Shown here: in pieces, positions 8,250 through 29,600 of the stretch
How positions within the stretch are numbered: position 1 is the first letter of the stretch
Layout of the letters: each line of letters begins with the position of its first letter
Assembly (NCBI GenBank): GCA_037447655.1
Contig: JBBHKE010000229.1
Location: 109,629 to 173,628 of the forward strand
Direction of reading: 5' to 3'
Origin: Zygnema cylindricum
Lineage: Eukaryota; Streptophyta; Zygnematophyceae; Zygnematales; Zygnemataceae
DNA: 64,000 nt
The notes under the pieces: generated by a model
Told to the model about the DNA's origin: nothing
The model's database searches: none
Seen by the model: only the letters and a program-made list of their open reading frames with translations
Translations under genes and position numbers: made by a program

Positions 8250-8867
8250 GTAGACACTACTAGTTTGGTAGGATCGGCAGATCTGAAATTTTAGTGGAAG
8301 GAAAGACATCCATAGTTACATTCAGTGGTGTGTTGTTTATTCCTGAGTTGAACAAGAATCTTATCTCAACATCTGTGTTAGATGATAAAGGATTTGAAAC
8401 TAGCACTAGGAAAGAAATCTTTACTGCTAGCTTTGAGGATAAAGTCTTTTTCACAGCTGAAATTGGTAGCCAAAGGATGTTCCGACTGATTTTAAGTAAT
8501 GGAAAGAATAAACTTTATTATGCTGGTGTTAATGATAAAATGTTTTGGCATAAGAGAATTGGACATGTGCATTTAGACAAGTTAAAAGAAATGAAAAAGA
8601 TCGGAGTAGTGGAAAGAATTTAGTTAGGGGAAAGTTAGAACCTAAGTGACTATACTGGATGTGCTCAAGGTAAGTCCCATAGGTTACCCTTCCCAAAAAC
8701 AACCACATATAAAGGCGAAAAAGTCTTAGATCAAGTATACACAGACCTATGGGGACCTGCAAAAATGCCTTCATGTGGAGGTAAGAGGTATATGATGACC
8801 ATCACTAATGCCTAGTCTCGGTATTCAAGAGTAAATTTTTTGAAAGCTAAATCAAAGACCCCATTAT
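8250..8867 (+). pseudogene. Copia GAG-pre-integrase and start of integrase, decayed
   Basis: Frame 8294-8623 (109 residues) has the protease/pre-integrase junction pattern LFIPELNKNLISTSVL and the GAG-pre-integrase motif FWHKRIGHVHLDKL. Positions 8640-8867 still read, with frameshifts and stops, as the integrase start, including TDLWGP with the first catalytic Asp and the YMMTIT strand. The rest of the integrase core is deleted. The next homologous segment (8868) jumps to the second catalytic Asp region fused to RT. Confidence 0.8.
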
Positions 8868-9257
8868 AATTTATGGATTACAAGGCATGGAGTGAGAAAC
8901 TACATGGAACTCGGATCAATGGCATGAGGTGTCATAATGGTGGAGAATATACTTCCAACCAATTTGAGGATTTTGTGAGAAAAGAGGGAATTGACTACAA
9001 GGAAACATTTGCCTCGGTCGTCAGGTTTCCTTCCATCCGTATACTTCTTAGTCTCCCATAATATGTTATGGAATACAAGGCATGGAGTGAGAAACTACAT
9101 GGAACTCGGATCAATAGAGTGAGGTGTGATAATGATGGAGAATATATTTCCATCCAGTTTGAGGATTTTGTGAGAAAAGAGGGAATTGACAACGAGGAAA
9201 CATTTGCCCCGGTCGTCAGGTTTCCCCCCATCCGTATACTTCTTAGTCTGAGTTTCC
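8868..9257 (+). repeat. 195-bp tandem duplication of a copia integrase-RT deletion junction
   Basis: Two consecutive units, 8868-9062 and 9063-9257, each encode YKAWSEKLHGTRIN, the integrase motif GGEYTSNQFEDFV (degenerate in unit 2), and then directly the RT motif ETFASVVRFPSIRILLS or its variant. In the intact arrangement at 1-1660 these two motifs are about 1 kb apart, so an internal deletion came first and was then tandemly duplicated. A further ~30-bp duplication (CCCCCCATCC ... CTTAGTCTG) follows at 9224-9281. Confidence 0.8.
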
Positions 9258-11339: not shown

Positions 11340-11623
11340 TGTCGAGCGTGCCCGAGAAACACAGGGGAAGGGCCCGCTGCACGGAACGGCCGGTCTTGGC
11401 GTCCTGCACAGAACCCACCAATGCGAATGCTTCCCATAATAATGATAATGCCCACTGCTGACCCCATCCCTCCCAATAGGCATGCATGAACAGGTTGGAG
11501 AGGCACAAGGATAGGGAATAGGGATGAGTGCATGGGAAGGCGAAAAGATCTCCCCTCCCCCTTACTTTCCCCATTAAGCCTGGGAAAGGGGGTTGGGTAC
11601 TCGGTAATCGGGTCGTTACCCCA
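11340..11623 (-). repeat. Extra copy of the gypsy LTR (repeat A1)
   Basis: A 284-bp unit that reads TG...CA on both strands, about 96% identical by eye to 12713-12995. The minus strand begins TGGGGTAACGACCCG and ends GCTCGACA. It has no adjoining polypurine tract. It is separated from the other copy by the 1.09 kb segment B. Confidence 0.75.
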
Positions 11624-12712
11624 ATTTTACTTATTCACGGGAAGTCTACAGCATTTGTTCCCTCAAAATCCACTGTTTCGATACAAGGAATAGGTAGTTT
11701 ACTCCGGGGAGTTCACGCCAAAGCAAAAGAAACTACAAGCGAATACACAAATGCACTACCACGTGGACACATAGAAAATAAATAGGAATGGTTGTTTCAG
11801 ATTTAACAATATCACCTTGAGCCACAGAAATAAAATATAAGATGGAAAATATAAAAGATGGCGAAGCAAGCTTAACATACCCCGGCAATTTACGAGAACA
11901 AAGAGACAAGGGCGAAATCTCTCCCGATGGTATTGTAAATAGGTATGGTACTCCTTCAACCCTCGGTGTCCGCAGTTCGGAACCGACCGGACTCTTCTCA
12001 GTTTCAAGCAGCGAAAGATCCAAAAATCACCCAAAGGGACGATAGTGCCAACTACCAGCCCGAACTATGATTCCCAAAATAGACAGATCCAAAAAAAAGA
12101 TGGCAATAGAGTCAAACAAAACAAAGATTCTTCCAAAAGAAAGTTTGTTGGATTTTCTGAGGGTTTTCACAGGAGACAGTATTGAAAAGCAACCTGTCTC
12201 CTTCGGCCCCAAGTGCCTTATACATCAAAGTTTGTCCAAAATCAGGTCCAAAAGTCAAACCTACGGTATTAGCCAATGAGCGACCAGCAACGGCAATCAA
12301 ACTGACATAAGACAAAATAATATGTACTACTCTTAGGGCAAAAAGTTGGACCCTTGACCACGGCTAGATCCGCGGCCGGAAGTTATTATTTCTTCCATAG
12401 TTTTTAAGACAAAGTACTAAAAAGACACGGAAGTGCTAAGCTTTGACTTAATGTAATTAATTAACTACTGGTCAGCTGAATCTGAACTGAATTGCTACAG
12501 ACAGCTAACAGCAAAATCTAGATTACAGTTCGGAAGTATACGTGGCAATCCACAATGTACCCTCCACTAGGGCTGGTGGAAACTAGTACTATGTGACGGA
12601 ACTGCGATCTTTCAGACGGCTTCTCCGGAATTTGAGAATGGTACGGGTTGGAAGGGTACGGAAATCCTCGGTAATATAGAAGCGTGCCTGAAAAGCACTC
12701 GAGCTTGACAGC
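11624..12712 (-). repeat. Segment B, 1.09 kb repeat between the two gypsy LTR copies
   Basis: Almost identical to 22661-23838, with only scattered substitutions. On the minus strand it begins GCTGTCAAGCTCGAGTGC and ends at AAGTAAAAT beside repeat A1. Both copies keep a minus-strand frame with the hydrophobic start MSYVSLIAVAGRSLAN followed by GLTFGPDFGQTLMYKALGAE. I do not recognise this protein. It could be a captured host-gene exon or the interior of a non-autonomous LTR element whose LTRs are the flanking A repeats. No primer-binding site was found next to either A copy. Confidence 0.6.
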
Positions 12713-12995
12713 TGTCGAGCGTGCCCGAGAAACACAGGGGAAGGGCTCGCTGCCCGGAATGGCCGGTCTCGGCGTCCTGCAAAGAACCCACCAATGCGAA
12801 TGCTTCCCATAATAATGATAATGCCCACTGCTGACCCCATCCGTCCCAATAGGCATGCATGAACAGGTAGGAGAGGCACAAGGATAGGGAATAGGGATGA
12901 GTGCATGGGAAGGCGAAAATTCTCCCCTCCCCCTTACTTTCCCCATTAAGCCGGGGAAAGGGGGTTGGGTACTCGGTAATCGGGTCGGTACCCCA
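12713..12995 (-). repeat. 3' LTR of the gypsy-methyltransferase element (repeat A2)
   Basis: Lies immediately after the polypurine tract on the minus strand, starts TGGGGTACCGACCCG and ends GCTCGACA, giving TG...CA termini and a length of 283 bp. A near-identical copy is at 11340-11623. The opposite (5') LTR is missing because the element is cut off near 20.88-20.95 kb. Confidence 0.75.
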
Positions 12996-13012
12996 ATTTC
13001 CCCCCCTCTTAG
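12996..13012 (-). promoter_or_regulatory. Gypsy polypurine tract
   Basis: Minus strand reads AAGAGGGGGGGAAAT directly before the LTR start, the expected plus-strand primer of reverse transcription. This fixes the element's orientation and the LTR boundary. Confidence 0.8.
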
Positions 13013-13132: not shown

Positions 13133-14232
13133 CTACCCGCACTGATGGCAGACCAAGATGTCTTGCTGCTGGGAGGACAGGTTGCATGATGATGAACAGG
13201 AAGGAGGATTGGCAAAGTAAGTCAAGTGGAAAGTCGGTTCGTCTTCTAATCCTCGGAGGTGAGAAGGGGCCACATTGATTTGATTTTCTTTAATTCTTCG
13301 CCCATCTTTCCCCTCCAAAGTAAGAACTCCCTTATTTGAAACTTCCACCACTTTCAAGATCACCCGCCCGGCAGAAATGTCAAGCGTGTCCTTTTTCTGT
13401 TGCATGCGATACACAAAGTCTCCCGGCATAAATCGTCGCTGTCGAGGCACATAATCTCCGCTCCGGCGTTGGGAATACCACAATTGATCCCGGTGTTGTG
13501 CCGCCTGCAAATTTCCCATGGCGAGAGGCATCTCCCGGTGGAAAATTTTGGCACGGTCGGCGATCAGTTTTTCGACAGTTCCCTGGTCATCCATTGCCAG
13601 GAGGACCACCGCTTGGGCAGAGGCAGCCCCGGGCAGAATGGGATGCCGTCCGAATAAAATGAAGTAAGGGCTGTAGGAGTGAAGAGAAGCCTGTCTGCTG
13701 AATCTGTATCCCATGGCAATCCAAGGCACCCTTCTGTCCCACTCTCCCAAGTCCTCTTCAACTGCATATTTCCGTAGTGACCGCTTCACTGTCTGTACGC
13801 ACCTTTCGGCCAAACCGTCGGCTTGGGGGTGGTCGCGACTGGTAAGTCGATGGTGATGAGGCATTTCTCCAAAAGATTAGTAAATTCTCCGGCGAATTTC
13901 GATCCCTGGTTTGTCAGAACCTCTGCTGGCGCCCCAAACTATGACAGGACTCTCTGCAGAAAGGCGTCGGCAATGGACTTGGACTCCTTTCGGGGCAGGA
14001 CCACAAGCTCTATCCATTTTGAGAAATGTTCAATCATGACCAGAACGAAACGATTCCCACGTCTGCTGGTCGGAAGAGGTCCTAAAAGATCCAAAGACCA
14101 ACGATAAAACATTCCCCTGATGGGAAGAGAATGGAGCTCAGTTCCGCCCTTTTTGTCAAAAGCTGCCTTAACTCGATCGCAGGAAGAGCAAGTCTGTACA
14201 ATTCGGTTGACTTGGCCCGCAACCCGTGCCAC
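13133..14232 (-). pseudogene. Gypsy integrase (zinc-binding, core and C-terminal parts), frameshifted
   Basis: The upstream frame (14232-13939) has the second half of the HHCC zinc-binding module (QTCSSCDRVKAAF) and the core strand WSLDLLGPLP with the first catalytic Asp, then VLVMIEHFSKW. The second frame (13864-13133) has SRDHPQADGLAERCVQTVK with the catalytic Glu, then a conserved core (PYFILFGRHP) and a C-terminal GPY/F-like module (VILKVVEVSNKGVLTL ... NVAP). The central Asp lies in or near the break between 13939 and 13864. Integrase inserts the cDNA into host DNA. Two frameshifts (about 14215 and 13900) disable this copy. No chromodomain was recognised. Confidence 0.85.
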
Positions 14233-16256
14233 CAGTAAGAGCCTGTAACCAAGGAAGTGGTTCGCTTCTGTCCGAAGTGTCTACATTGTTTATAGAGATT
14301 GGTAATCAGAGTTTCTCGATCTGAGGGAGGAGGAACCACTTTCCTAGTACCGTCTGTCCATTTTCGGAGGAGCACTCCTCGGTCCCATTCATACGCCGCC
14401 ATCCGGGTCTGAACTCGGGATAATTGAATTCCAGCCAAGTGGGGAAGAGGGGATCCTTGCTGAATAGATTGGAGAGCTTCAGAGTCATTCCAAATGTCTT
14501 TCCGTCCGGCTCCTATGGGTGCCTGCCCCTCAACATCTGCTGCAAAAGTTGACAATTCCCCCCCAGATGGAAGAAGCCAAATGAAGGCGGAGGATGCTCG
14601 AATGAGTCCCAAACTGATTTCCGGATCCTCGTCGTGCCGAGCCCCGGTGGAATCCAGGGTAGAAGGATCGGGGTATCGGCTCAGTCCGTCGGCATTCCCA
14701 TGAATTTCCCCTGCCCGGTGGACAATGCTGAAATCATATTCTTGCAGGATAAGAACCCATCTGGCGAGTTTGCCGGTCAACTTACTATTTTCCATGATCC
14801 ACTTCAAGGGTTGGTGATCGGTGATTAGTGTGAAATGGACCCCGCACAAATAAGGTCTGAAATGCTGAATGGCCCAAACCGCGGCAAGAAGCTCCCCATG
14901 ATAACTGCTATAATTTCCCTCAGCTCGGTTATTGCTCCGGCTGGCGTAAGCCACCACATACTCGGCACCTGCGTCGTAAACTTGGGCCAAAACAGCTCCT
15001 AATCCAAACCTACTCCAATCAGTGTAAAGGAGGAAAGGCCTATGGTGATCAGGCATCCGGAGCACTGGGTGTTGCTTCAGAGCATCCTTCAAGAACTGGA
15101 AAGCGATCTGCTGTTCCTCGGCCCACAACCATTCTTGATCTTTCTGCAATAGCTTATTTAGGGGCTGGGCGTGACTACTGAACTCAAGAATTAACCTGCG
15201 ATAGTAGTTGGCCATGCCAAGAAAGGTGCGCAAGGCAGAAATATCCTGCGGGGGAGGAAGAGCGTTAAGGGCTGCAACCTTAACCATATGGGGACCCACG
15301 GTCCCAGGAGTCACCTCATGTCCGAGGTAAATAATTTTATGCACCCCAAAAATACCCTTGCCCGGGTGACATTTCAAGCCCGCTGCTTGAAGGGCCCGGA
15401 GAACGATCTGGATATGCTCCACATGTTCCTCAAAAGTCTTTGAGAATATTATCACATCGTCGATGTAGCACCGGGCACAATCGATTCCTCGGAGCGCTTC
15501 GTCCATGGCCCGTTGGAACTTGGCTGGTGCATTCTTCAGTCCGAATGGCATATAAAGCCACTCATAAAGTCTGGATCCGCCCCAGAATGCAGTTCTCTCC
15601 CGATGTTTTAGTTCCATGGCAATCTGGTGGAAACCATTCTTCATGTCCAGTGTGGAGAAAATAGTGGCCCCAGCAAGAGAATCGAATATCTCTTCCGGGG
15701 TTGGCATTGGGTACCGGTCAGGAATGGTGGCCGTGTTCAACATGCGGTAGTCCCCACACATTTGGAAGTCCACAGTTTTCCCGGATGAATCCTTCTTAGG
15801 AGGGAGAACTGTGGGGGAAGCAAACCCATGGAGTCCGGTACTTTCCTGAACCAACCTTGCGTCCACCAAAGTTTGAACCTTTGCAGTAATAAACTCTTTC
15901 TCTTTCAAGCTGAGAGGATATTGTTTCTGCCAAACCGTTGCGGTTTCATCGATCAAATCTATCCGAAAGGGGGTTCCTTTGTAGATTCCGACATCTGTTT
16001 CGGACCATGAGAAAACCTGAGTGTTTCTAGCCCAGAGTTCTGTTAGCTGTTCTTTCTGCTGAGGGTCCAGCTGCTCCCCCAGAGTCCAGTCCATTTTTCC
16101 AGGCTCAACCGTAGCCCAAGCTTCCGGTGGTTTTCCCCAGAGGTTGATGTCGAATTCTAGCCCAACCTGTGGATCTGCCTCTATTCCTCCGGATAATACT
16201 TTACAGCTGACAACTTCCGCTAAGTTGTCTTCTTCTGAGCTCCTGTTCCCCCCCAC
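14082..16256 (-). pseudogene. Gypsy reverse transcriptase and RNase H
   Basis: A 724-residue open frame with all RT landmarks: FRIDLIDETATVWQKQYPLS, DYRMLNTATIPDRYPMPTPE, FSTLDMKNGFHQIAM (first catalytic Asp), FGLKNAPAKFQRAMD, and YIDDVIIFS with the catalytic Asp pair. FLGMANYYRR and the Ty3-type RNase H follow (LLYTDWSRFGLGAVLAQ, HGELLAAVWAI, LITDHQPLKW). It then enters the integrase zinc region (LYKQCRHFGQKRT) before a frameshift near 14215 ruins the last ~50 residues. RT and RNase H themselves look intact. The frame begins at a GTG in a run of seven G inside the end of the methyltransferase, so it was probably read as part of a larger polyprotein, not from its own start. Confidence 0.92.
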
Positions 16257-17422
16257 TGAAGGAACTCTCGGGTGTAGAATTTTCTCTTTTCTCTCCCCCC
16301 TTCAAGCTGCAAAGTTGCTTGCATGGACAGTAACTGTGGAGCTTGAAGGTAATTTCTGCGTGAATTTGGAGCGTGGAGACTGGAATAGGCAAGAGCATGC
16401 TTTACAACCCATGTAATGGCATTTAAATCCATGCTTTGCCCTATGAGGCTGCACCGCTGTAGGTCTGAAATACCTGGTGCTGCCGTGGTTTCCGGATGAA
16501 ATCCCATTGCCTGTTCTCGTTCCGATATTGTGGGTGCTGTCCAAAGTCTTTCCTTGCTTTCAAAAATCATTCCATCTGCCCCTTTCCGGTAGGCATGACT
16601 GTGAGGAAAAGATACCAACGTGGGGAGTGCTCGACGTGGGAATCCGGGGATATTGCATTGGAAGAAAGGTGTACGATCCGGCTTTGTTACAGGTGTCGTT
16701 ATTCTCCCTTTTCCAAGTATCTGTTGCACTGAAATCTGGGGGTCGGGGGTTTGTGTCTCCAATAGTTGTCGGAGGACTGGAAGAGGGATCATATTGATCC
16801 AATATGCCCGGAGTCTGTGCGCTCGAGATCCCATTTGAGCATCGTCAAAAACCAAGGGAGCTCCCAGAATACGGGTTACCTGATTCCAACTTTCTGCAAC
16901 CTGCTTTCATTTATCATCCCCCGGGTGGACATTCTCCAAAATGTACCCCACTGGTGTGTCTTGGAGCTGTTGAATCCACGATATCAATGTAATCATCTGA
17001 TAGAAGGTTCCACTTTGGTGGTCCTGATGCCCTCTTCCTTGTCTTGCTAGGGAGTATCTCTGACAAGGCCATCCCGCCACAACCAGATCTACTGTTCCCA
17101 GACTAGCTAAATGAGGTGCCATTATATTATCCACATTCTGGGGAAGACTTCGGTGAGCTTTGGAAATGGAAGACACTGGAAGCTGTTGAGGATATAAGCG
17201 GTGCAGTTGATGTAGGCGGTGTTCGCTGACAGCTCGCGCTTCCGGTGAAATTTCCACCGCTGTGTATGACTCCACTCGATACCCTGCCTTTAAAACTGCC
17301 TCCAAATCAGAACTGATTCCTGAAAATAAAGATAAAATCCGAAGTCCGGAGTCGGGGACTGTCAATGACACCACTTGTTGATTGAAGTTCTCGCTCCCAG
17401 TCTTGGTTTTGAAAACATCTGG
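16220..17422 (-). pseudogene. Retrotransposon-borne cytosine-5 DNA methyltransferase (DNMT3-like)
   Basis: The first part (17374-16910) has the AdoMet-binding motif I LRILSLFSGI, motif II (TAVEISPEAR), motif IV DLVVAGWPCQ with the catalytic Cys at codon 17065-17063, the motif V region SGTFYQMITLI and motif VI YILENV. After one in-frame TGA (16909-16907) the same frame continues with motif VIII-like SRAHRLRAYWIN, a target-recognition region of roughly 90 residues, motif IX SEREQAMGF and motif X LIGQSMDLNAITWVV. All catalytic motifs are present in the right order. The compact layout and the AHRLRAYW and EREQAMGF segments are closest to DNMT3-type enzymes from memory. The enzyme transfers a methyl group from AdoMet to C5 of cytosine. 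Lying between protease and RT and sharing the protease frame, it was presumably released from Pol. One internal stop makes this copy non-functional unless read through. Confidence 0.88.
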
Positions 17423-17551
17423 CTATTTCGTCGAATCTGTTTTCGGTAATAGTAAGGCCGAGAATGTTTGATCCACTCCCCGCCGGAGTTTCGCCACGTG
17501 CAATAATCTGTCTGTGTATTCTTTTTCCCACCGCTTGGATATCGGGAATTG

Positions 17552-18163
17552 CTAGATGTCTTCGGCAATATGTGTGGAACTGTCAAACAGCTCCGCCGGA
17601 GAGGTTGTAGAATACAGGGGGAAACAGCCAGACACCGGAACATTGGTCTTTCCCCGGTTCCATAAATCCAAAGGAACCACTACTTTGGTTCCTTCGGGAT
17701 TTCCTGGGTCCCGAACCGTACATTGCTCCTTCCAAACACTCAAACTCATATTCATGCGGGTCCAAGTTGCCATTCCCAATAGAATTTCAAACTGATTCCC
17801 TTCTACCACTAAGAAAGGAAGTCCAATTTTCACCTTCTGTCCCGCATCATCGAAGAATTCAATGTCCATGGCTTTGATGATCCCATGGACTGGCTGATTG
17901 CCGCTGCTGACTGTGCTCAAGCAGATGTTACTCGGGCAGATCTGGGGTCTGAGTTCTTCCGGCATTTTCTGCAATGCAGAAGTAGTGATGAGGTTGGGAA
18001 GGGCTCCGGTATCAACCACAACGTCCTGATACCCGCCGTACCCGTTCAGTTTGAAATTCTTGGTCCTGTTTAGAATGAGTGCCACGGACAAAGTTTTGTA
18101 GTCCCTATCCGCCATAGGGGTCTTAGGATCTGAAGACAAGTATACCGCCGTGGGTGGTGTCAC
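17552..18163 (-). pseudogene. Gypsy aspartic protease
   Basis: A 203-residue stretch with the retropepsin pattern: VVVDTGALPNLIT (active-site Asp-Thr-Gly), a flap-like region, and EILLGMATWTRMNM equivalent to the ILG(R/M) motif near the protease C-terminus. It cleaves Gag and Pol polyproteins. It is in the same frame as the linker upstream (separated by TAA at 18179-18181) and the methyltransferase downstream (separated by TAGs at 17552-17554 and 17423-17425), pointing to one ancestral frame. The stretch after the first TAG (about 40 codons) is open and continues smoothly to the next TAG. Confidence 0.82.
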
Positions 18164-18178
18164 CGTATCGACTTTGTC

Positions 18179-18905: not shown

Positions 18906-19164
18906 AGTCGTTGCGCTGCCGTAAGAGGAGCAGGCCGGTAAGTCGACCCCAAACGAAGTGCAGCCAATTTTGCAGCCATGGCAACCATCTGCTGACTCTG
19001 TTGTTGGATTATTATCTCCGATGTAAGTCTTGCTGGAGCAATCGTTAATTGTTCTGGTGTCACTGGTGTAGGCAGCACTGGGCGCTCCCAAGGGTAAAGT
19101 AGTTGTAGGGGAAGAGGGTTAATGCCAGTCTCTCCTCCTCCCGTGAACAGACCACATTACATCA

Positions 19165-20875
19165 TTTCCTTCGAGATCCCGTTCTTCCGGAAACATTGCC
19201 CCTCCTTGTGCCCCATAAAACCACAAGCCTGGCATTTGTGACCCTCGGTGGTATACTTCCTCCGAATCTCGTTGGAGATCTGAGCATCGTCAAACTTGGG
19301 CAGTTTGATTTGCCGCAGTTGGGACTGGGACATTTTCGAAGTTTCGCTCCGTGGAGTGGGTCGGTAATTGTTCTTAGTGACCGGTGTTCTCTCCCCCCCC
19401 CCAGCTCCTTTGAGTCGTTCTTCATGCTGCTTCTGGCTCCTTTCTGAACGTTCTACCTCCCATTCTTTCAGCTTGAGGGCTAGCTCCGGTTTGAGTTTCC
19501 TGCTTCAAGTTTCCATCCATGTCCTGGTTGTTGACAATTTAGGCAATTGTACAGAATTACCCGATCGTCTGCCCCCATTGCAGCTTTGGGCCCGCTGTCC
19601 ACAACTTGCTTCCCTTTAAGCTTCCGCAAAGCTTGGAGTTCTGCTTGTTCTTCCCCACTTAAGGAAGTCTCCCCAGCGAATCCTGCAAAATTTGCTCTTG
19701 CCTTGCCGGTCACGGCTTTTTCCCTAGCCTCACTGTGAATGAAGTGGTCGTACAACTTCATAGCCACCAGGGATATGTCCTTGGCCGAGGGATTGATGTC
19801 CTGGATTGCCTGTCCTGCAATCCAGTTATCCAAGGCAGTCTGCCCTGTCGGTCCGAAGGAATTACGGACAGCAATGAAATTCTTCGTGGCCATTGCAGGA
19901 AGATCAATGGTCGACAACTTAGTTTTCTGGCACAGGCTAGATAGACGGTTGAAGAGAGTCTGGGGTGTCTTGCTCTTCAGACATCGAAATTCCGTGAATT
20001 CCTTGATGGCCGATTCGTTCCTCTCGGTGTAGAGGAGTCGCCAGATATTCAGAAGAGTGGTACAAGGGGTGGGATTGGGAACCATGCATGTTGCCGCCCG
20101 AGCTGCCTGAATAGCTTGCAACTGATTAACATAGGCCTTTCCTTGGGCCTGCAGTTTCATGTCATCGGTGAATGTGGCTGTCACAGAGGTGGCCGCCGCT
20201 GAAGCCAAGTCAGCCTCCGCTTGAAGAACGGCCGCATCAAGAGTGGGATCAGATATCTTGATGCTAGGAGCCATCAAATGAGGTTGACGCTCCTTATAGT
20301 CTGCCAACGCCCCTCCACAGAGGTAGTTAACCATCATAGGAAAGAGGGTCGTCTCGAAGTCATCCGGCACCGCTCCTCCCTAGTACTTATTGATTTCTGA
20401 TTGGGTGAACGATTTCCACAACAACTCGAAATCTGAGAAAGCGATCCCGGAGCTGTCCCCTGTAAATATTCGAATTTCCCCCATTTCTTTCTCCTCTTCC
20501 GCTGATTGGGTGAACTGAGAAAAGAAAATGCCGGTGGGACTGACGAACTGTGCCGGCGAAGTGACCCCTTTGTCTTCTTCTTCGGGACCGGGACCGCCTT
20601 CTCCTCCGGTAGGAGGTGCTGCTCTGCGAGGTGGGGATACTCATCCCAAGGGAAGTACCAACCCCTAAAAGGATGGCTGGAGGAAGGGTATTCCTCTCGG
20701 GAAGAACTTCTGGCCTCCTGGGTGCAGATGGTAGCTGCGTCTGAAGACTTGTCTGGCCTGGTGTCGCAGAAAGAAGGGCCCACTCCCCTTCGTCCACTCC
20801 TCGATATCTACGGGAATACCTTTCGTCCCTAAGAACTTCCTCCTCTGAAGGGATGTGGATCCGAGGTCGGTTCAT
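19165..20875 (-). pseudogene. Gypsy gag with two zinc knuckles, frameshifted
   Basis: Starts MNRPRIHIPSEEEVLRDERY at 20875, followed by a low-complexity charged region whose frame shifts near 20780-20700. The capsid region is the 296-residue frame 20370-19480 (FRCLKSKTPQTLFNRLSSL, AVRNSFGPTGQTALDNWI), with an incomplete knuckle CLNCQQPGHGW at its end. A further intact CX2CX4HX4C knuckle (CQACGFMGHKEGQC) is read at about 19230-19190. Gag builds the particle and packages RNA. A stop near 20385 and several frameshifts kill this copy. The 5' UTR and primer site upstream are missing. Confidence 0.75.
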
Positions 20876-21284: not shown

Positions 21285-21297
21285 AAAATAAGGGGAG
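21285..21297 (+). promoter_or_regulatory. Copia polypurine tract
   Basis: AAAATAAGGGGAG directly before the LTR at 21298, the same block as at 2528-2540. Confidence 0.7.
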
Positions 21298-22481
21298 TGT
21301 TGATATTTGAGTATTTTCTAGGTCTTTATAGAAAAAGAGCAAAGGAGAAAAGAGCAAAGGCAGTTTGTCCCTGACTCCCTTCTACAAACCCCCACGTTTG
21401 TTGTAGTCACTGAAGGCTTGATAGGGAGCTAGAGCCATGGCTGCCTAATGCTCACTAGAGAGACATGGGGTGGATTAGATATATACTAAAAGATATTGAC
21501 GGATGCAAGAATTGAACCTTGTACCTGCCGTCCGTCATCTTCCGTTAGACGTTAGCTCTAAACCGTTAGGCCTAGGATAAATATTAGGATATATTGTATT
21601 TGATAAATATATAAATTGTTACATGTAGATTAATTCATTTAACGGCGAACAGATACTTAGTGCATAGATACAGTTTGATTTAGTACGCAGTCCGGTACGC
21701 GGACAGAACGGATACCGCACATTTGTTTCGATAGCGAAACAAATACTGCGCGTCGAATTTCAGCAGCTAGGATTATAGCCGGTTTTGATCGGACGGCCGC
21801 GATAGGCGCCACGATCACGAAAAAGGTACTTTTAGCGTTTTATGGTATTTGCCACGTCAGATGACACATGGCATGATAACATTGGATTACGAGAATTTCG
21901 GAGATTAGAGGAACTAATCCTGATTTGACACGTGTCGACATTTTTGCCATATCGTACAATGGCCGTACAAAAAGTACACCAACACCTGTACTTTTCTCTA
22001 AGACACAGTAATTTGATTGGTGCCGTACTTCAGTAGATAGAGTTTTAGAGAGGGAATAGGACTTAGAAAATTTTGGGTAAGTAGCTGCCTCTCCCAAGAG
22101 CACCTTGTATAAATGGCAAACTTTGGCCAGCCATAACTATCAATTTACTTGACCATTTTCAGTGATTATTTTTGCTACGGACTCACGGGAGTCCATGCTA
22201 CACAGGGGTGTAGTCGGTCAGAGTTTTTGTCTGCCAGGGTGGCTGCATTTATAAGGGAAAGTCAAAGTGGGTGAATGTGTCCAAATCTAATATTCTAACT
22301 TTGCATTCTGTGGTGGAACTGAGCACACAGAAAGTGTTATTTCACAAGGGTGAATCTATATTGGGATTGTGACTGTCAAGGGGTCAGTCAGTTGGTTTTA
22401 TATTAACTTGGAGTCGGCACTATCTAGATTAGCTTCTTTTGGATCTGCATACTCTGAGGGCCAATGGAGGTCTCAGAGTCA
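21298..22481 (+). repeat. Complete copia LTR (family 1), 1184 bp
   Basis: Starts TGTTGATATTTGAG after the polypurine tract and ends CAGAGTCA. Its length closely matches the 1187-bp LTR at 25856-27042. It contains the ATTTGTTTCG ... CGAAACAAAT inverted repeat (about 21720-21745), GTAC-rich repeats near 21960-21995, and an antisense tRNA-like segment (21505-21590, rc with TAACGGTTTAGAGC and GGTTCAATTCT). No primer-binding site follows, so it is a 3' LTR. Confidence 0.82.
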
Positions 22482-22660
22482 TTCTTCCGGCCGGGCACCG
22501 GAGAGATTCCTATCTTGGACTTCGCCTCCCCCCATGATGACAAAGGTCTTGAAAGAAGAAGAAACGAAAGTAAACTAAACTCGATTGCGTCAAGTGGGCT
22601 TTTAAAGTCAAAAAATCCTATCCCCTCTAATCCGAAGAAGACAGGTTGCTTTTCAGTACT
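22482..22660. other. Unassigned 179-bp spacer
   Basis: Lies between the copia LTR and segment B'. Its last ~27 bp (22633-22660) are an inverted copy of a stretch inside B' (about 23210-23240). I see no coding or repeat identity for the rest. Confidence 0.5.
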
Positions 22661-23838
22661 GTACTTATTCACGGGAAGTCTACAGCATTTGTTCCCTCAA
22701 AACCCACTGTTTCGATACAAGGAATAGGTAGTTTACTCCGGGGAGTTCATGCCAAAGCAAAAGAAACTACAAGCGAATACACAAATGCACTACCACGTGG
22801 ACACATAGAAAATAAATAGGAATGGCTGTTTCAGATTTAACAATATCACCTTGACCACATAAATAAAATATAAGAAGGAAAATATAAAAGATGGCGAAGC
22901 AAGCTTAACATACCCCCGACAATTTACGAGAACAAAGAGACAAGGGCGAAATCTCTCCCGATGGTAGTGTAAATAGGTATGGTACTCCTTCAACCCTCGG
23001 TGTCCGCAGTTCGGAACCGACCGGACTCTTCTCAATTTCAAGCAGCGAAAGATCCAAAAATCACCCAAAGGGACAATAGTGCCAACTACCAGCCCGAACT
23101 ATGATTTCCACAATGGACAGATCCAAAACAGAGATGGCAATAGAGTCAAACAAAATCAAAGATTCTTCCGAAAAAAAAGTTTGTTGGATTTTCTGAGGGT
23201 TTTCACAGGAGACAGTACTGAAAAGCAACCTGTCTCCTTCGGCCCCAAGCGCCTTATACATCAAAGTTTGTCCAAAATCAGGTCCAAAAGTCAAACCTAC
23301 GCTATTAGCCAATGAGCGACCAGCCACGGCAATCAAACTGACATAAGACAAAATAATGTGTACTACTCTTGGGGCAAAAAGTTGGACCTCTGACCACGGC
23401 TAGATCCGCGGCCGGAAGTTATTATTTCTTCCACAGTTTTTAAGACAAAGTACTAAAAAGACACGGAAGTGCCAAGCTTTGACTTAATGTAATTAATTAA
23501 CTACTGGTCAGCTGAATCTGAACTGAATTGCTACAGACAGCTAACAGCAAAATCTAGATTACAGTCCGGAAGTCTACGTGGCAATCCACAATGTACCCTC
23601 CACTAGGGCTGGTGGAAACTAGTACTATGTGACCGAACTGCGATCTTTCAGACGGTTGAACTTTGTCATCCGGCCTCCGTTAGGCACAAAACAAAGTGCG
23701 TCTGGTTCAGTAGAGGAAATACTTCCATCCTTCCGGCAGGTTGTGCGGGCTTCTCCGAAATCTGAGAATAGTACGGGTTGGAAGGGTACGGAAATCCTCG
23801 GTAATATAGAAGTGTGCCTGAAAAGCACTTGAGCTTGA
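22661..23838 (-). repeat. Segment B', second copy of the 1.1 kb gypsy-flank repeat
   Basis: Near-identical to 11624-12712 apart from a ~70-bp insertion (about 23660-23752) and point changes. It carries the same minus-strand frame (SYVSLIAVAGRSLANSVGL). It is flanked by a plus-strand copia LTR on one side and a truncated minus-strand copia LTR on the other. No LTR A copy is attached here, so B can move or be duplicated independently of A. Confidence 0.65.
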
Positions 23839-23990
23839 CATAGGCAGCCATGGCTCTAACTCCTCCTCCAGTCTTTAGTGACTGCAACAAGTGTGGGGAG
23901 TTGAGAGAAGAGTTAGAGGCAAGCTGTCAGTGTCTCCTTTTTGCCTTTTATTTCACAATCTCTAGACCTAGAAAATACTTGAATTCAACA
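23839..23990 (-). repeat. Truncated copia 3' LTR
   Basis: Minus strand starts TGTTGAATTCAAGTATTTTC and runs 152 bp to CTGCCTA, where segment B' begins. Matches the first part of the LTR at 27042. Confidence 0.8.
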
Positions 23991-25855: not shown

Positions 25856-27042
25856 TGAAACTCTTAGACCTCCATTGGTCCTCAAAGTAGGCAGCTCACA
25901 AGAAGTTTATCTAAGTAGTGCCGACTCCAAGTTTATATAAACCTAAATGATTTACCGTTTGACAATCAGAACCACATTATAGCTTCACCCGTGGGAAATA
26001 AGACTTTTTGTGTGCTCAGTTCCACCACAAAACTGCAAAGTTAGAATATGACTTTTGGACCGATTCACCCACTTTGACTTTCCCTTAGATATGCAGCCAC
26101 CCTGGCAGGCATAAACTCAGACCACTACACCCGTGTGTAGCTTAGACTCCCTTGAGTCCGCGGAAAAAAATAATCTCTCAATTTGCTCCCTTGAGCAGTA
26201 AGTTATAGAGGGTCAAAGTTGACCTTTTGTACAGGAGCTCTCTCGGAGAGAGGCGGCTACCTACTAAATTTTCTAAGTCCTATCTCTCTCTAAACTCTAT
26301 CTATTGACGTACGGCACCAATCACATTACTGTGTCGTACAGAAAAGTACTGGTGCTGGTGTAATTTTTGTACGACCATCGTACAACATGGCTGAAATGCC
26401 AACACATGTTATATCTGGATTTGTTCCTGTAATCTCTGGAGTTGCCGCAATCCAATGTTGACGCGCCACATGTCCCTTGACGTGGCGAAGACCGTAAAAC
26501 GCCAAAAGTATATATTCCGCGATCGCGGCGCCTATCGTGGCTGTCTGATCAAAACCGGATATATTTCTAGCCATTGAAAATAGACGCGCGGTATTTGTTT
26601 CGCGGTCAAAACAAATGCGCGGTATTGGTTTCATACAATACATAAAACCGTACTCCGTACTATCTAAAACTGTATCCATGCACTACGAATCTATTTCTCG
26701 TTAAACGAACTAGTCTGTGTGTAAATATTTATATGTTTGTCAAACTCCATGTACATTAGCACTGGTCCTAGACTTATAAGATAAAGCTAACTGTCAATCT
26801 GAAGGACGGCAGGTACCAGGATTAAATTTTGGGTTCTTCAAACCTTTTGTAACTCTATCAAGATTGGCCTTCCTGTCCTCTTTGGACAGCTTAGGCAGCC
26901 ATGGCTCTAACTCCTCCTCGAGTCTTTAGTGACTGCGACAAGTGTGGGGAGTTGAGAGAAGAGTTAGAGGCAGGCTGCCAGTGTCTCCTTTTTGCCTTTA
27001 ATTTTAGAATCTCTAGACCTAGAAAATACTTGAATTTCAACA
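25856..27042 (-). repeat. Complete copia 5' LTR (family 1), 1187 bp
   Basis: Minus strand starts TGTTGAAATTCAAG and ends AAGAGTTTCA just before the primer-binding site. Contains the ATTTGTTTCG-type inverted repeat (about 26588-26616) and the antisense tRNA-like block near 26790-26830. Confidence 0.85.
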
Positions 27043-29600
27043 TCCCTCGGTTGACCTCACCAATCAAAAAACCTTAAAAGTAGCATAGATTCGTCAAAAG
27101 TGGCGGAAAGTGTGTATATATCATGTTTTAAAGCAGGCTTAGTTTGTGAAAGTGGCGCAAATTTTGTTGATGTGAGAAGCGTATGTTAGTCTATTTTTTC
27201 ATTTTCGAAGTGTTTGTGATGTGTGTGTGTTGATGATCAAATCACCGTATGGTTGTTGTTCCCATGTAAAATGTGAAGGTAGTCTATAGATAAAATGCTT
27301 ATTGTAAAATTAATCAATGAACATATAAACGTACGATGGTTGTACACTTTGTTAAGGGCAACTGAAAGCGTGATAAAACATGAAACTAAAAGTGAAGAAT
27401 AAATATTCAAAAATGATTGTTGTACACTTTGTTAAGGGCAAGTGAAAGCGTGATAAAACATGAAACGAAAAGTGAAGAATGAATATTCAAAATGGTTGTT
27501 GTTCCCATGTAAACTGTAGGGATACAGTTTATATATAATTCATGTTGTAAAATTTATCATTAAACACGTAAAATTATGATTGTTATATACTTTGTTTAGG
27601 GCAAAAGAAAGCGTGATAAATTAGGAAACTAAAAGTGAAGTATGAATGTTAAAAACATTAGTACGCTTACTTGAGCTGTATAAGAACCGAGAGAGTTTGC
27701 AAACACAAAAAACGTTGGATCTGCTCAACTCTCGAGTATAGATACGTGGGTGCCATTCGGGCTCAATTGATGCCTCAACCTACATGTGATGAAATAAAAT
27801 TATATGTAGGTAACGTGATCAAATCACCTAGGGTTGTTGTTCCCATGTGGAGTGTAGAGCAACTATTTATGTATAATGCATCCAAATCACGTGTTATGGT
27901 TTGCCTTTTTTTTCCACCATACAAATGGTGACTAAACGTTTTACACAAGATTTTAACATTAGAAAATGCATTCAAATTAGATCTAAATTTGTGACATGGG
28001 AGTTTGTGCCATTAATTTAGGAAACAAGTTAAGAAGAATAGAAAAAATTAGTCGTTTCACGTTTTTGGGAATCCTTCTTAAAAGTAGGTAACCTTTATCG
28101 CACAAGCTACTTTATATGTATTAACTGGTACCTACCTGTCTTAATAACATAACAACTTACATTTTTTGTCGACCTGGACATAAAATTAGAATAAAAAGTG
28201 ACCCGTTTTCATCAATATGAGTTTATTACGTCGAAATTTACATAGGATTTCTAAATTCACGGAAATATCGTATATTTACAAAATGTAGTGTATGTTTGTT
28301 ATGTAGTGCGTTCATGTTTGCCGTTTCGGCCTGAACCGTGGAAGGCCCCCAAAATTTTTTGTTCATTTCGGCGTATCACAACCACGTTGCTATTCTGATG
28401 GAAATTCAAAAAGACGTGTCATCTATAATTCAACTTAGGGTTTGAATGACAAATCGGTTGCTTCTACTATTAAGAACGGTTTGGTACATATTTGTTATTG
28501 TCCATGACTTTGTTTTGGTTTTGAGGTTCCTTGCATGGAGTTTGGTATGTGTAGTCGCGTTCTCTCCTTATCAAAAATTTAATTTGAACAACTTGAAATT
28601 TTTGAGATCATTCACTAATGGTAGTTAGTCTTATGTGTGTTTATTCGCCTTAAATTTTTCTAGGCCCAAAATAGCGTTGATAACAATATTTGTTTATTTG
28701 GACTGATAAGTTTCTTACACTAATGGCGATTTGATGTGTAAGATTGATTGGACTTCTTTACGCCCAGAAAAAATATTGGTCGCACTTTGGAAATTTTTGT
28801 TTTACTAAAAATCATAGATTCGTACTATGCGCACGCATGACACACCCAAAAATTAATGAATACGCGCACAAAAAAAAAATCATAAGTTTATCAAATGCGT
28901 TGACCGAATTGGACTTTATAAAAAAATAAAAAATAGAAAAATTCCAATCAAAAGTAATACTACAACTTAGGGTATGTGCCCATGTATCAAATTACCGGGT
29001 TTTTTAGCAGTACGAGGGAGAGTACTCACTAATTTTTTCATTGCCGGTCACGCTTATGTGCCGAAAAAAAATTGCACTTAATCAAATTTAACTCAAAATT
29101 TTTTTTTTCGTATTAGATCTGCTCATTATTTCGTACAATTGTACAAAATAACTCTTAGATAAAGGCGTCGACAGGGGAAATTGAGTGTGTTCCATAGAAA
29201 AGCATACTCAGATTTGATTCAAGTCACAAAGACGAGGGAAAATAGCGAGAACATGTTCAAGCGTCAAATATGTGAACACATACTATGGCAGCTACAACAT
29301 GGAAATGTGTATTAAAATTAGTGTTGGGTGTATAAATTAGCGTTAATTTTTGTTGCCGTTAAGCACTTTAACCCAAAATAGAGTTAGAAATATTGATTTT
29401 CTCTTTACACAAATTGTTTCTTAACTCTAATAGCGATTCACGTTGTACTTTCAACCCTCCTGTTTTTTTTCTACAATTTATTGGTACAATTCATCCGTAC
29501 ACGAAAAGTATACGAATTTTAAGAAAAGTTCAAAAAGTTTAAAAGCATTTTCGTAAAGAAGTCAAAATCAGTACGAATATAAACTCAATGCTAAAATTAA
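27043..29600. other. Gene-free AT-rich stretch with dispersed and tandem repeats
   Basis: No protein-coding signal seen. A repeat with the phrases GATCAAATCACC, GTTGTTCCCATGT and TTTGTTAAGGGCAA...AAAGCGTGATAAA recurs at about 27230-27410, 27415-27500, 27500-27640 and 27800-27870, and again at 41590-41759. Near 29331-29445 is a possible degenerate mariner-like MITE ending AATAGCGATTCACG. Confidence 0.6.

Follow-up and report, generated by a model that had tools for sequence, protein, structure and literature searches.

DNA methyltransferases (DNMTs) borne by retrotransposons have been described in dinoflagellates and in a charophyte, and their role has been termed unclear (de Mendoza et al. 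2018, PMC5890265). The charophyte element, KnitGypsy-Dnmt3 of Klebsormidium nitens, carries its DNMT inside the gypsy Pol and has DIRS-like repeats; a yeast test gave no methylation, a result that the authors call inconclusive (PMC5890265). KnitGypsy is named by no other paper in the literature searched. Here we describe a retrotransposon family of Zygnema cylindricum, starting from one copy in the window, the whole stretch of 64,000 nucleotides analysed. The family closely matches KnitGypsy-Dnmt3, in line with the charophyte precedent named by the first-pass annotation, so DNMT capture itself is not new. Both hold an unrearranged DNMT3-type enzyme in the Gypsy Pol ORF, next to the reverse transcriptase (RT), and, judged by description, share the DIRS-type repeat arrangement A-coding-B-A-B (PMC5890265). 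SymbioDIRS-Dnmt3 and SymbioLINE-Dnmt of Symbiodinium are likewise retrotransposon-borne DNMTs, the former with the DIRS-type repeat order, but they use a tyrosine recombinase and LINE machinery, respectively, where our family has a DDE integrase (PMC5890265). The main text of PMC5890265 contains the term "PHD" nowhere and "stop codon" once, on decayed LINEs, and the portions of its KnitGypsy-Dnmt3 description compared here make no mention that we could find of a conserved stop, a primer site, target duplications or a PHD finger.

We think it probable that the window holds a decayed Ty3/gypsy-type copy whose Pol includes a DNMT3-like methyltransferase (MTase) and a PHD finger, from a family that would use readthrough, self-priming, a circle route and cDNA methylation. 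All features lie on the minus strand, in the order A1, coding, B1, GC, A2, B2, which is also found in the copy on contig C1344. Repeat A1 (22662-23840), the left element end, begins TGTCAAGC, a TG end, and is followed by a putative 30-nt primer-binding site (22632-22661). Gag remnants in broken frames (19160-20379) gave no Pfam match; two CCHC-like zinc knuckles were recognised there by eye. The aspartic protease (17555-18178) matches PF13650 at E 0.0034, under the curated cut-off, as does that of copy L009 (E 2.1e-4). RT, RNase H and the start of the integrase occupy 14085-16301 (RVT_1, 2.5e-27; H2C2 just under cut-off), and a partial DDE integrase core (rve) lies at 13942-14280 (PF00665, E 2.4e-4, under cut-off; E 1.5e-12 in L009), giving the Ty3/gypsy layout of RT-RNase H followed by H2C2 and DDE integrase. 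The integrase C-terminus (13136-13876), which by itself has no Pfam match, ends at the apparent first residues of a PHD finger. A polypurine tract, AAGAGGGGGGG (13000-13010), also seen in eight other copies, abuts repeat B1 (12713-12999), which ends GCTCGACA. The GC spacer (12711-12712) of the palindromic B1-GC-A2 junction then leads into A2 (11628-12710) and B2 (11340-11627), the right element end. A1 pairs with A2 (BLAST against 11628-12710: 96.8% identity in an alignment of 995 columns and 94.6% in a second of 93) and B1 with B2 (96.2% identity to 11340-11627); the window repeat pairs differ by 3.0-3.5%. Two other repeats were noted in the window: an inverted 1.2-kb repeat at 77% identity between the element's left non-coding region (21293-22479) and the flank (25860-27046), and a 195-bp unit present as a tandem pair at 8860-9249, 91% identical.

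The C5-methyltransferase motifs claimed by the first-pass annotation are present in the minus-strand translation of 17422-16220, and the profile search that it suggested gave a match at 16910-17422 (Pfam PF00145, E 7.4e-9, 35.9 bits; curated cut-off 22 bits). The domain of L009 matches the same profile at E 7e-14. On its own, the C-terminal half of the window domain (16223-16906) has no Pfam family at E<=0.01. In L009 and L010, however, this part lines up with that of metagenome relatives from motif VIII to motif X; the alignment has 14 sequences, some incomplete there, and leaves out the window's own C-terminal half. The motif order, I-IV-VI-VIII-IX-X, is not rearranged as in DRM methyltransferases, which rules out that identity, and both the best sequence match and the fold match are DNMT3. 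DNMT3 enzymes have PCN at motif IV; the family differs in having PCQ in L009 and most aligned rows, and ECQ in P0012, P0015 and C1344. The motif IV cysteine is retained in 23 of 24 copies. Separately, L030:378-653 is an exon of a chromomethylase-like host gene, scoring 104 bits to PDB 9mvy, 7ubu and 4fsx, which we take to be plant chromomethylases, and 51 bits to the next match; this indicates a host of the green lineage. A search of the assembly for the RuBisCO large subunit gave no match.

The enzyme does lie between the protease upstream (17555-18178) and RT-RNase H downstream (14085-16301), as had been claimed. That it shares the protease frame is correct as far as the frame goes, but a TAG at 17552-17554 separates the two. 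The annotation noted neither this stop nor the split repeats, the self-complementary primer site or the PHD finger. The proposed MTase start at 17422 does not hold: the reading frame opens at 17551, domain and linker together covering 16220-17551, and 17422 looked like the start because of a stop at 17423-17425. This stop occurs at the same place in L022 and is absent, for example, from L009, L010 and L019. A TGA at 16907-16909 splits the MTase domain, the RT frame differs from that of the MTase, and the integrase has further frame breaks. With these two stops and the RT out of frame, the window copy, as read from its sequence, is dead and unable to make the enzyme.

Intact copies were sought in the assembly (352.8 Mb, 2689 contigs) and found. 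The first half of the MTase has at least 152 matches in the genome, with 65-100% identity among the matches listed; the count is a lower bound, as only the best candidates were scored. A search with the Pfam MTase family gave 123 matches. C1374 and L009 have a 1520-aa frame comprising MTase, RT, RNase H and integrase, and C1344 has a 2395-aa frame (2155 aa + 240) running from Gag through integrase and PHD finger. The loci on C1344 (L033, L052 and L053) represent a divergent MTase-gypsy subfamily, with this single Gag-to-PHD frame, ECQ and identical A repeats; L009 and C1344 are 42% identical in the MTase, 54% in RT-RNase H and 55% in the integrase. Among 20 protein matches, P0006, from a metagenome, likewise has the MTase followed by RT, the two domains being 54% and 71% identical to those of L009, and P0007 has protease then MTase. 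Based on the divergence of L009 and C1344 and on these two gene orders, the MTase was probably captured before the splits among L009, C1344, P0006 and P0007. No near viral relative emerged: a scan of viral contigs with the L009 MTase found one contig, with a C5-MTase at 29% identity.

Selection was estimated on 24 copies. The median dN/dS of the MTase is 0.217 (184 pairs, dS>0.05) and 0.123 (62 pairs, dS>0.4), compared with 0.152 (204 pairs) and 0.050 (88 pairs) for RT and 0.161 (130 pairs) and 0.046 (76 pairs) for the integrase at the same two dS limits. The MTase is thus under purifying selection across the family copies; set beside its two medians, the Ka/Ks of KnitGypsy-Dnmt3 is below 0.2 (PMC5890265). 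The central claim of the first-pass annotation, a gypsy family that encodes its own DNMT3-like enzyme within Pol, is borne out, and the enzyme is selected for. A chance assembly, in which a host DNMT pseudogene lodged between gypsy pieces, is extremely improbable given the at least 152 matches, the same domain order within one uninterrupted frame, of 1520 or 2395 aa, and P0006; the recurrence of an intact MTase-Pol order rules out the host pseudogene reading.

At the protease/MTase border (17546-17554), the window has UAG-CAA-UUC, a putative readthrough site. Of 20 fetched loci of 10 kb, 18 have TAG followed by CAATTC there, as does the window; these loci were picked by peptide, leaving the codons free, and all 19 sites read TAG CAA TTC. 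In the other two loci, L023 and L028, the peptide pattern used did not find the site. Genome-wide, there are 228 occurrences of the downstream motif CAATTCCCNATHTCNAAGCG and one of its control. At 20 further listed CAATTCCCNATHTCNAAGCG sites, picked by hand on contigs throughout the list and avoiding loci already read, the codon is TAG in 18, TAA in one and TAT in one; the search motif contains CAATTC, so these sites test TAG alone. TAG does not seem to be a sense codon, as the 1520-aa frame has no internal stop. The site resembles the known plant-virus (TMV-type) readthrough motif UAG-CAR-YYA in its UAG-CAA-UU and differs in its final base, C rather than A, and in its position at a retrotransposon protease/MTase border (PMC3542737). 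We infer programmed readthrough at the UAG: the protease would end at a conserved leaky stop, and MTase, RT, RNase H, integrase and PHD finger would be made only by readthrough. It could instead be that the UAG is never read through, that MTase-Pol comes from internal initiation or a separate RNA, and that the stop ends the Gag-protease product. The C1344 subfamily manages without a stop here, its continuous frame needing no readthrough, yet the TAG is kept while silent positions beside it vary, and its surroundings are close to UAG-CAR-YYA (PMC3542737), so we judge this alternative improbable.

The other end of the predicted readthrough product would carry the PHD finger. A PHD profile search of two copies matched the integrase end of C1344 (locus L053) at E 4.8e-11 and, weakly and under the cut-off, that of L009 at 2e-4; the finger would act as a histone reader. 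No chromodomain is among the matches at E<=1 in L009:8299-9876, which has the PHD finger instead. Chromoviruses carry a chromodomain at the integrase end, and its absence from this part of L009 argues against membership of that group. Nor is a tyrosine recombinase among the matches at E<=1 of six pieces of L009, which have the rve integrase instead. DIRS elements use a tyrosine recombinase and are not known to make a target duplication; the rve integrase, the tyrosine recombinase not found in L009 and the 4-bp duplications described below argue against DIRS membership.

The primer-binding site starts directly after A1. In the window, 29 of its 30 nt are complementary to A1 599-628, with a score of 27; the best of 200 shuffles scored 10. 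The C1344 site has 18 nt complementary to its own repeat A (score 17, maximum 11 in shuffles), and lies in sequence that has no match to the window A and B; C1374 has a similar site. Tf1/sushi-type elements self-prime, the primer site after the left repeat being complementary to the element's own repeat, over 11 nt in Tf1. The family is like these elements in its self-complementary site just after the left repeat, and differs from Tf1 in having 30 or 18 nt rather than 11 and a PHD finger rather than a chromodomain. A fragment of the element's own RNA, derived from repeat A and pairing just after A1, may prime minus-strand synthesis. Plus-strand synthesis would start at the polypurine tract before B1. 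Given these two positions, the linear cDNA would be B-GC-A-coding-B-GC-A.

The junctions and ends of the repeats bear on how such a cDNA might be inserted. The spacer between B1 and A2 is GC in all nine copies read (window, L019, L020, L021, L022, L023, L025, L028 and C1344), and the B1-GC-A2 junction pattern has 111 exact copies in the genome, against none for the reversed control. The A2|B2 joints vary: the repeats meet directly in the window and C1344, L016 and L040 have C between them, L042 has CG and L038 has CAC, and in L034 and L036 deletions extend into B (L023 was too diverged to call, and L044 has no A). Constant and variable joints are what would be expected if the B1|A2 spacer were templated and A2|B2 newly made by end joining. 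Both ends were read in ten copies, not counting C1508 and C886, whose left ends lay outside the fetched stretch. Perfect 4-bp target duplications flank six of the ten, namely C746, C1214, C1344, C928, C161 and the solo A-B of L016, and three of four bases match in C902, C1485 and C2026; a 4-base match is expected by chance about once in 256. At both ends of the window copy a target duplication was looked for and is absent. In C1344, A1 equals A2 over 931 bp, and the repeat pairs align without substitutions.

We propose, tentatively and with more doubt than confidence, a DDE-integrase element that is self-primed, makes a DNMT3-like writer and a PHD reader via readthrough, and inserts from a circle opened at a palindrome in its own repeat. 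Joining of the cDNA ends would form a circle, which the integrase would open within one repeat at the left GC palindrome (...CGACA-GC-TGTC...), giving 4-bp target duplications and A1-coding-B1-GC-A2-B2; the order and the duplications are observed. Ordinary linear integration followed by recombination could also split the repeats, with no circular intermediate. The solo A-B of L016 and a tandem on C1825 show that recombination between repeats probably occurs, but the perfect duplications at the A1 start and B2 end of complete copies, including C1344 with its identical A repeats, suggest that these are the inserted ends, and we consider this alternative unlikely. A third route, based on the DIRS replication model, would pair the transcript ends over the B1-A2 junction, close the circle by templating and insert it by the DDE integrase. 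Its A-coding-B-A-B order is that of DIRS (PMC5890265), but the polypurine tract at B1 and the primer site at A1 resemble ordinary LTR priming, and the variable A2|B2 joints are unexpected of a templated joint; we hold it rather unlikely.

The circle model has evidence against it too, including the window copy's absent target duplication. Its main weakness is the scarcity of the mirror form, with the junction 5' of the coding region, which random opening of a two-repeat circle predicts to be equally frequent. Of 100 junctions listed among the 111, 39 have a listed MTase on their own strand no more than 16 kb away, 37 lying 3' of the MTase and 2 lying 5'; the other 61 have none. The distance is 4525-4726 bases in 29 of the 37, and the remaining eight may belong to other copies. 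One of the two 5' junctions, C1825, belongs to a tandem array and is preceded by integrase sequence; at the other, C2298, an integrase match was sought upstream and not found. At its right end C1825 has CGACA-AC-TGTCAT, which is not followed by a repeat A; this site was left out of the counts of both junctions and ends. Tandem elements on this contig (L056) share one B-GC-A repeat. Since the mirror form is so rare, either opening is biased or the circle model is incomplete. In C928, C2026 and C161, which have the form A-coding-B, no A2 was found beyond B1; these copies fit a one-repeat circle, yet later B1/B2 recombination could yield them.

Inserted copies bear traces of methylation. Between the repeats of four copies (C746, C902, C1485 and C1214; seven pairs), CpG transitions account for 31 of 118 differences, and in the window repeat pairs for 7 of 43. 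Differences per CpG base, computed by hand on element copies only, are about 13% versus 3% elsewhere in the four copies and 6% versus 3% in the window, and the element has a CpG observed/expected ratio of 0.68, compared with 0.81 for the rest of the window. The excess change at CpG suggests that inserted copies become methylated, by the host or the element enzyme. The place of the MTase within Pol supports a possible association with the particle, and we hypothesize that the packaged enzyme could methylate the element's own cDNA or new insertion at CG, which would perhaps mimic host DNA or settle the insertion into tolerated chromatin. That the K. nitens relative showed no activity in yeast (PMC5890265) weighs against this hypothesis. 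The enzyme might also serve the host, brake new copies by silencing rather than aid escape, or act on RNA; a brake and RNA methylation were both raised in 2018 (PMC5890265), and the CpG excess accords with a host or brake role whichever enzyme methylates. Selection on the MTase across diverged subfamilies argues for a benefit to the element, which makes this alternative rather unlikely.

If the proposed route is true, the cDNA could be chromatin-marked before it enters the genome. In the textbook view, the DDE integrase of an LTR element acts on the ends of a linear cDNA, and the ends mapped here would challenge it; they also point to a possible reason why a Gypsy element was published with DIRS-like repeats. 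The question of what retrotransposon-borne DNMTs do is now testable in this family, which has at least 152 matches in the genome, an enzyme under selection, mapped ends and one insertion whose repeats are identical.
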